Origin: Candidatus Saccharimonadota bacterium
GTDB lineage: Bacteria; Patescibacteriota; Saccharimonadia; Saccharimonadales; OFTM59
DNA length: 37,918 nucleotides
Assembly: GCA_029260855.1 (NCBI GenBank)
Contig: JAJDCK010000003.1
Location: 1 to 37,918, forward strand
Direction: 5' to 3'
The notes under the pieces were generated by a model that worked only from the letters and a program-made list of their open reading frames with translations, had not been told where the DNA came from and ran no database searches. Within the stretch, counting starts at the first letter, position 1. Every line of letters starts with the position of its first letter. The position numbers and the translations under genes are program-made. Below, piece by piece: positions 33,397 to 34,824 of the stretch.

Positions 33397-33424
33397 TTGA
33401 CAAACTTGACAAGTATGGTAATGT
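33397..33424 (+). promoter_or_regulatory. Predicted promoter of the trpS leader
   Basis: TTGACA (33397-33402) - 16 nt ending in TGG - TAATGT (33419-33424), extended -10 type; ATG follows 7 nt later. Confidence 0.45.
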
Positions 33425-33431
33425 ACACCTT

Positions 33432-33506
33432 ATGTCAAGTATGACACAACAGGACAAGTATTGGTTTACCGACACTATTGTGGCGGTTTGTTCTGTGTGT
33501 TCATAA
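33432..33506 (+). CDS. Candidate 24-aa Trp-containing leader peptide MSSMTQQDKYWFTDTIVAVCSVCS
   Basis: Short ORF starting just downstream of the predicted promoter, ending about 20 nt before a terminator hairpin; Trp codon at 33462-33464. Confidence 0.45.
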   Translation: MSSMTQQDKYWFTDTIVAVCSVCS

Positions 33507-33525
33507 AATTTATTAGAAAATACTG

Positions 33526-33551
33526 AAAAGACCGCTACCAGGCGGTTTTTT
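33526..33551 (+). terminator. Rho-independent terminator between rpsI and trpS (possible attenuator)
   Basis: AAAAGACCGC-TACCAG-GCGGTTTTTT, 10-bp stem with one G-U and a T tract. Confidence 0.85.
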
Positions 33552-33576: not shown

Positions 33577-33737
33577 ATGGAAGAAAATGAAGCAGGACTA
33601 CTTGTAAGAAAGCACGGTGTGTCGCTGGGGATATCCGCGATCAAAGCACATATGCAGATGTCGCAAAACGCTGCGGACTAATACCAGAGCCAGAGCAGCG
33701 TATAATTAAGCAGAATGAAGAAGTTACGGTAGAATAG
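33577..33737 (+). pseudogene. Frameshifted small CDS upstream of trpS
   Basis: MEENEAGLLVRKHGVSLG in frame from ATG 33577, then DIRDQSTYADVAKRCGLIPEPEQRIIKQNEEVTVE* in the -1 frame from 33630; the break is at a GGGG run. Confidence 0.5.
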
Positions 33738-33744
33738 AGTGAAG

Positions 33745-34824
33745 ATGGCAAAACAGGTAATTTTGACGGGAATTCGCGCGAACAATGACCTTCATATAGG
33801 CAATTATATGGGGGCTATGTTGCCCATGATTGATATGGCGACTAAGCGGGCCGGAGAATACCAGGTCAATCTGTTTGTACCGGACTTACACAGCTTCACA
33901 ACGCCTATTGACCATCACAAGCTTCAAGATGCAATAATGAACAATTTGCGCGTATTTGTGGCCGCAGGGCTGCCGATAGATAGCCCAGATGTGCACATAT
34001 ATCGTCAAAGTTACGTATCAGCTCATTCCGAACTAACAGTAATACTGGACGGCTTTACAGGCTTTGGCGAAATGTCACGTATGACCCAGTTCAAAGACAA
34101 GGCTAAAAAGCTGCATGATGATTTGCAGGAGTATGTTGATGGGGTTGATGTTTCAAAATCAAACAAAAATGTGTCTGTAGGGCTTTTTAACTACCCAGTG
34201 CTTATGGCGTCTGATATTTTGCTGTACGGCACCACATATGTACCTGTGGGCGACGACCAGACCCAGCACATTGAATTTGCACGTGACATTGCCGAGAGAA
34301 TGAACAGACTATTCGGTGAATTATTTGTAGTGCCAAAGTCCGTTAAAGAACAGCACACATTTTTTGGCAAAGACCAAGGTTTACGTATTAAGGATCTTGT
34401 TGATCCGACTAAAAAAATGAGTAAAAGTGATGGGTCAGGACGGGGAGTCATCTTCTTAAACGACACGCCAGAAATTACTCGCAAAAAAATTATGAGCGCC
34501 ACCACTGATAGTATCGGTCGGGTCGGCTACAACACTGATCAGCCCGGTATCAGCAACTTACTCGAGTTATTGTCGTTATTTAGTTCACGTTCGCTTGCCG
34601 AAGTTCGTAAAGAGTTTGAGGGCCAAACCCAGTATGGACTATTAAAAGAAGCTGTGGCTGATTCTGTCGCAAACTTCTTAGCGGACTTTCAGGCTAATTT
34701 AACTAAAGTTAACGACAAAGCACTGAAAGACAAGCTTGAGACATCAGAAAAAGCCATGAACGCCATTGCAAACAGAACCCTTTTAAAAGTACAGCAAGCC
34801 GTCGGCCTACGTCCGAAGGATTAG
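33745..34824 (+). CDS. trpS: Tryptophanyl-tRNA synthetase
   Basis: DLHIGNYMGAMLPMID (HIGH) and PTKKMSKSDGSGRGVIFLND (KMSKS); the track start at GTG 33739 is an alternative. Confidence 0.96.
   Translation: MAKQVILTGIRANNDLHIGNYMGAMLPMIDMATKRAGEYQVNLFVPDLHSFTTPIDHHKLQDAIMNNLRVFVAAGLPIDSPDVHIYRQSYVSAHSELTVILDGFTGFGEMSRMTQFKDKAKKLHDDLQEYVDGVDVSKSNKNVSVGLFNYPVLMASDILLYGTTYVPVGDDQTQHIEFARDIAERMNRLFGELFVVPKSVKEQHTFFGKDQGLRIKDLVDPTKKMSKSDGSGRGVIFLNDTPEITRKKIMSATTDSIGRVGYNTDQPGISNLLELLSLFSSRSLAEVRKEFEGQTQYGLLKEAVADSVANFLADFQANLTKVNDKALKDKLETSEKAMNAIANRTLLKVQQAVGLRPKD

Follow-up and report, generated by a model that had tools for sequence, protein, structure and literature searches.

The segment at 33397-33551 of the window (the whole stretch of DNA analysed, 37,918 nucleotides long, from Candidatus Saccharibacteria) is very probably a ribosome-mediated transcription attenuator, as judged from its sequence and from that of its relatives. 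It is flanked by rpsI (PF00380) and trpS (TIGR00233, above cut-off). Comparison with other genomes establishes its conserved parts, its reading frame, three covarying helices, and a match between leader codons and the genes behind them.

Table 1. Features of the element and of the sequence up to the end of trpS, in window coordinates
Feature	Position	Strand	Description and basis
Promoter, sigma-70-type	33397..33424	+	TTGACA-16 nt-TAATGT with extended TG; sequence and relatives
-35 box, TTGACA	33397-33402	+	read from sequence
-10 box, TAATGT	33419-33424	+	preceded by TGG; 16-nt spacer from the -35 box
Leader ORF, predicted leaderless, MSSMTQQDKYWFTDTIVAVCSVCS and stop	33432..33506	+	24 codons; ATG at 33432, after a gap of 7 nt from the -10 box; stop TAA at 33504-33506; frame test in 91 relatives
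Sensor codons Tyr-Trp-Phe (TAT TGG TTT)	33459..33467	+	conserved as (Y/F)-W-(F/Y), with synonymous changes; the only Trp codon of the leader at 33462-33464
Region 1 (ACCGACAC)	33468..33475	+	fold and covariation; partner of region 2 without a stalled ribosome
Region 2, core GTGGCGGTTT and inner stem	33480..33505	+	5' side of the antiterminator, within the leader ORF; covariation and interior-shuffle test
Region 3 (AAAAGACCGCTACC)	33526..33539	+	common to antiterminator and terminator; GACCGC at 33530-33535; covariation
Region 4 (GGCGG and T-run)	33541..33551	+	3' side of the intrinsic terminator; T-run ends at 33551; covariation
Remnant small ORF, 34 codons	33577..33681	+	out of frame here, and differently so in the sister genome
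Candidate trpS promoter elements	33701..33735	+	-10 TAGAAT at 33730-33735; alternative TATAAT at 33701-33706
trpS, tryptophan--tRNA ligase, predicted read-through target	33745..34824	+	TIGR00233, 267.9 bits (cut-off 176.75)

The first-pass annotation had read the promoter (TTGACA-N16-TAATGT with TGn), the ORF, its Trp codon, a duplicated arm and the terminator, all of which are correct to the base. The duplicated arm, GGCGGTTT, occurs at 33482-33489 inside the leader ORF and again at 33541-33548 in the terminator. Chance does not account for this design. Against dinucleotide shuffles of the window sequence, the leader fold has a z of -4.1 and the antiterminator segment alone a z of -5.3, and the design recurs, with covariation, in about a hundred genomes.

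A generic promoter and terminator scan did not flag the element's sites on the + strand. It missed the promoter because its -10 rule demands at least 4/6 matches and TAATGT scores 3/6, so that the promoter is called on comparison with relatives. Many of these have better -10 boxes in the same place, and the second genome of the genus shares 23 of the 28 promoter positions. An inverted repeat, ACTTGACA (33403-33410) and TGTCAAGT (33432-33439), flanks the -10 box and the leader start, and could be an operator or a product of chance.

Leader reading frame and competing helices

The same element lies upstream of trpS in six further genomes, each with an ORF containing Trp-Phe, a GGCGG core and a terminator; in most, a clear promoter stands directly before the leader ORF. 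A covariance model built from these seven copies (the window and six relatives) finds a match at E<=0.1 in 190 of the order's 391 genomes, though chance accounts for part of the weakest matches; about half of the 391 genomes searched lack a match. The studied set comprises 98 loci with E of about 1e-4 or better, and roughly half of the matches between 1e-4 and 1e-2 are real by inspection. All these sequences are related, and the counts given here are not counts of independent events.

By comparison among copies, the leader ORF is real. Of the 91 copies whose anchor codon is Trp, 88 have an ATG 4-13 codons upstream in the Trp frame, with that frame open for 8 codons, whereas the two alternative frames score 2 and 0. 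If the ATG must also be preceded, at 5-9 nt, by a -10-like hexamer, the counts become 66, 0 and 0. The leader start is therefore predicted to be leaderless, as the first-pass annotation had proposed, and in relatives the leaderless ORF, Trp codon, duplicated arm and terminator are kept together. A short leader ORF upstream of a terminator is one hallmark of trp-type attenuators, and here its translation is predicted from the frame preference.

Three helices can form from the four regions, namely 1:2, the antiterminator (2:3) and the terminator (3:4). They were assessed in an alignment of 101 copies that had not been fitted to the antiterminator. For the antiterminator, 80.9% of cells are paired, compared with 75.0% in shuffles, which leave relatedness in, and 31-47% when the helix is slid, a control that keeps relatedness; double changes occur in 15 of its 17 pairs. 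The terminator is 95.9% paired, with double changes in 7/8 pairs, and helix 1:2 is 86.6% paired, with double changes in 6/6. Slid controls lie far below the real helices. When the interior of the antiterminator is shuffled and its cores are held fixed, the real sequence is more stable than the shuffle mean in 81 of 101 copies (mean z -1.4). Antiterminator and terminator have an arm in common and are mutually exclusive, as had been suggested from the window alone; both covary, and so does the third helix, 1:2, which competes with the antiterminator in the window fold.

Predicted folds follow the logic of attenuation. With no ribosome, the window sequence folds into helix 1:2 and the terminator; freed from 15 nt past the start of UGG, it folds into the antiterminator, and freed from 15 nt past the stop, into the terminator. 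Among 88 copies with a ribosome placed at the stop, the terminator is predicted in 88. The expectation that this position leads to termination is thus upheld in its outcome, but the ribosome would cover the inner part of the antiterminator and not GGCGGTTT itself. With a stall at UGG and region 4 not yet made, the antiterminator is predicted in 87 of the 88 copies, which agrees with the earlier proposal that a stall at the Trp codon leads to antitermination. If the full-length minimum-energy fold is taken instead, 49 stalled copies form the antiterminator and 39 the terminator. Since 39 of 88 prefer the terminator by energy alone, the order of synthesis matters, as it does in classical attenuation.

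In the proposed mechanism, for which we infer the start site, the stalling, the efficiency of termination and the degree of trpS dependence, RNA polymerase would start at or next to the ATG, so that the transcript opens directly with the leader ORF. When Trp-tRNA is short, a ribosome would stall on the Tyr-Trp-Phe codons and cover region 1; shortage of Tyr- or Phe-tRNA would presumably cause the same stall. Region 2, 20 nt further on, could then pair with region 3 while region 4 is still to be transcribed, no terminator would form, and transcription would continue into the remnant small ORF and trpS. With ample charged tRNA, the ribosome would read through region 2 to the stop and block the antiterminator, and after its release region 2 would pair with region 1. 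Either way, 3:4 would form and transcription would stop. The spacing suits such a mechanism: UGG and GGCGG are 19-23 nt apart in 66 of the 70 copies with an exact core, slightly farther than a ribosome held at the Trp codon would cover.

Since the element lies behind a ribosomal protein gene and contains an intrinsic terminator, it might simply end the rpsI operon, its ORF and the repeat of its terminator arm being fortuitous. This is extremely unlikely, given the frame counts of 88/2/0, the element's own promoter, and the covariation of both the antiterminator and helix 1:2; moreover, copies away from rpsI keep the design before other genes. A plain terminator with a chance ORF was ruled out by frame conservation and covariation.

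Leader codons and the genes they precede

The leader consensus is M-(8-10)-(Tyr/Phe)-Trp-Phe-Thr. Among the 91 leaders, 80 have a Tyr or Phe codon (TAT, TTT, TTC, TAC) directly before Trp, and 84 have one for Phe or Tyr directly after. The model is anchored on Trp, whose conservation therefore carries no weight here, whereas that of the flanking residues carries some. Conservation of TTTACC may partly reflect the RNA and not the peptide, as this sequence also lies in helix 1:2.

Several leaders that depart from the consensus precede genes that fit their codons, so that, as in trp-type attenuators, sensor codons match the metabolism controlled. Two come from the unselected set. The leader MKSFNGNTYLYTDYILAVFAVRS (G366:C30), with Tyr codons and no Trp, lies before a biopterin-dependent Phe hydroxylase, and MINLNVAQSYLVPYYLAD (G064:C6), likewise with Tyr codons and no Trp, before a prephenate dehydrogenase. 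The probability that both unselected Tyr-enzyme loci would fall by chance among the three Trp-less leaders is 6e-4. A third Tyr leader, MSSIIINSTYYVRIYLADYYSVS (G116), precedes a prephenate dehydrogenase. A weak fourth, with three Tyr codons before chorismate mutase and prephenate dehydrogenase (G039), is not independent, as it was found by looking at the prephenate dehydrogenase/chorismate mutase gene. A search of 148 genomes for the Phe hydroxylase family gave no further Tyr cases, the single one having come from the RNA search; the gene is therefore rare. In G375, a leader with Trp-Arg-Trp precedes a TrpB-like enzyme.

A phylum-wide RNA search gave weak matches outside the order, probably mostly chance. 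Of those inspected, L199 is convincing and L200, L201 and L203 are not. L199 (G593:C1:536090), from a different order of the phylum, has a predicted leaderless leader, MRLTLMQISFNWWTTSLWR followed by a stop, with Trp-Trp before trpB. Attenuation may accordingly reach wider in Patescibacteria. Another locus outside the order, L204 (G510:C21), carries a pair of candidate leaders, 0.7 kb apart, that have aromatic codons and terminators of the GGCGGG type; the second precedes a 443 aa ORF. L276 (G016:C9) has several Phe codons and no Trp (AVFFGFTSFIQAV within the leader), lies before a 65 aa ORF and a 337 aa protein, and is a possible Phe-tuned member.

The Tyr/Phe flanks, together with Trp-less Tyr leaders before Tyr-forming enzymes, make the element better named an aromatic amino acid attenuator. 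The mechanism of trp-type attenuation, as first proposed for this DNA, is supported, but the sensor is probably the aromatic Y-W-F triplet and not one Trp codon. We regard as an even proposition the broader reading that these are modular, leaderless attenuators of Saccharibacteria, which read the three aromatic aminoacyl-tRNAs through Tyr-Trp-Phe, are retuned to Tyr, Trp or possibly Phe by codon change before other genes, and perhaps extend more widely, given the one WW leader before trpB.

TnaC contains W-F, and many of the present leaders read YWFTD, which is reminiscent of it; a C-terminal AVCSV(R/C)S is also conserved in a subset. The element could on these grounds encode an arrest peptide that senses free tryptophan, with a nascent W-F-x-D stalling the ribosome at the stop when Trp is high. 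Such a peptide should have conserved nascent-chain residues, including its C-terminal part, and these were not found: the C-terminus changes in frame and content between copies as the RNA arms stay, and Asp at +3 is present in only 39 of 91. The genes concerned are biosynthetic or charging genes, expected to be on in starvation, and the Tyr variants swap codon with gene. A TnaC-like peptide is thus very unlikely.

Relation to known attenuators

Many aminoacyl-tRNA synthetase genes of other bacteria are under T-box control, which invites a T-box, riboswitch or protein-binding leader as an explanation for an element before trpS. The probability of this is negligible. No Rfam family reaches cut-off here or in relatives, and the conserved part consists of a translated-looking ORF and three short helices. 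Against Rfam release 15 (leaders, T-boxes, riboswitches), only tRNAs reach the gathering cut-off and the element's matches lie far below it; identity with an Rfam T-box or known leader was ruled out on this basis.

The attenuator resembles E. coli trpL in its short leader ORF with Trp codon(s), its helices 1:2, 2:3 and 3:4, and its intrinsic terminator with an exclusive antiterminator. In contrast to trpL, it is predicted to be leaderless, has one Trp codon between Tyr/Phe and Phe, carries region 2 inside the leader ORF, adjoins trpS and varied cargo instead of trpEDCBA, and has no Rfam match. The single Trp codon, where trpL-type leaders usually have at least two, counts against the attenuator reading.

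Aromatic amino acid attenuation is also known from pheA and pheST of gamma-proteobacteria, and so includes a synthetase operon. These respond to Phe only and lack a Y-W-F triad, and to our knowledge none has a leaderless start. The pheST attenuator is mentioned in PMC1262725, which predicts a classical attenuator before the tryptophanyl-tRNA synthetase gene trpS2 of Streptomyces avermitilis. This is one case, in Actinobacteria, where the trp leaders have two or three UGG codons, and it is not known to come with family-wide covariation or Tyr variants. The trpLE(G) system of Sinorhizobium meliloti has a leaderless trpL, with a transcript that starts at the leader ATG, and is subject to Trp attenuation (PMC7298713); unlike the present element, it has consecutive Trp codons and controls trpE(G), in an unrelated lineage. 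Attenuation of trp genes, the trpS2 attenuator of S. avermitilis and the leaderless trpL of S. meliloti are already known or predicted.

A literature search that covered few subscription papers and no preprints gave no description of an attenuator in Saccharibacteria or other Patescibacteria (CPR), nor of a ribosome-mediated attenuator for Tyr, which is weak evidence of absence. Gene regulation is little known in the Candidate Phyla Radiation, whose very small members depend on others for many amino acids. If the present reading is true, a conserved starvation sensor at trpS and at aromatic synthesis genes would mean that these organisms monitor tRNA charging by attenuation through a leaderless leader peptide. 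With Tyr-tuned members, ribosome-mediated attenuation would extend to a further amino acid, the codon-gene match would be a natural experiment on changes in attenuator specificity, and the model could suggest the pathway of unknown genes behind such leaders.

Neighbouring genes and the place of trpS

The element is followed by a same-strand trpS in 83 of the 98 loci, 46 of which also have rpsI upstream. A search of the window's own genome gave no further copy of the element, the second match there being the same palindromic terminator on the opposite strand. Two attenuator copies in tandem are seen at L112 (G015), L130 (G082), L085 (G007), L132 (G013), L146 (G083), L126 (G119) and L124 (G205).

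Control of trpS, as first proposed, holds in part. The gene would be a read-through target, but a -10 box matching at 5/6 positions or better stands immediately before 77% of 77 trpS starts, compared with 6% of control ATGs. Most of the Saccharibacteria examined thus have a separate leaderless promoter for trpS, and one objection named in the first-pass annotation, a trpS promoter located after the terminator, partly applies. The attenuator would therefore only add a starvation-responsive read-through transcript, and its effect on trpS may be small.

The working attenuator might then serve the gene directly behind it, an aromatic synthesis enzyme or a small protein, with trpS incidental and expressed from its own promoter. 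The next gene mostly starts 15-40 nt past the terminator, with a Shine-Dalgarno-like motif in 72 of 90 starts, and the frequent -10 box before trpS is also in line with this reading. We nevertheless consider it possible but rather unlikely. The placement of the element ahead of trpS, in the same orientation, in 83 of 98 loci speaks against it, and in some copies (G028, G284, G366:C3) trpS follows the element with no full-size gene in between. In the window's genus, the small ORF at 33577-33681 is broken here and, through other indels, in the sister genome. The element is 47/48 identical between the two from Tyr-Trp-Phe to the stop (98%) and 67% identical in the preceding leader codons. A broken ORF in both genomes and a preserved core favour trpS as the remaining, and obvious, target in the genus.

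Genes between element and trpS were grouped into BLAST clusters, with one or a few members of each checked in Pfam/NCBIfam. The clusters include DAHP-synthase-like proteins (18 loci), class II DAHP synthase (3) and prephenate dehydratase (6), and genes of aromatic synthesis recur as first cargo. Other cargo comprises prephenate dehydrogenase, chorismate mutase, TrpE after DAHP synthase (G184), Asp/Glu racemase, an aspartoacylase-like protein and a LysE-type transporter. In addition, about fifty small ORFs of <130 aa lie between element and trpS; two of their proteins were tested and matched no Pfam family. Small proteins of this kind (window 33577-33681, L202, about 50 loci) lie directly behind the attenuator, are fast-evolving and 50-110 aa long; several share a sequence resembling EAR..L...GV..DI.DHRSP.EIL, with SPYFVK or NPYFA as the tail. 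A protein of about 345 aa also recurs behind aromatic attenuators (L129/L205 in G316, L137 in G146, L124 in G205, L309 in G028), and the member tested had no Pfam match. The leaders before it carry FYIF, GYWF, NWY and YYRHWH, and it is followed by what appears by eye to be an M20-type peptidase.
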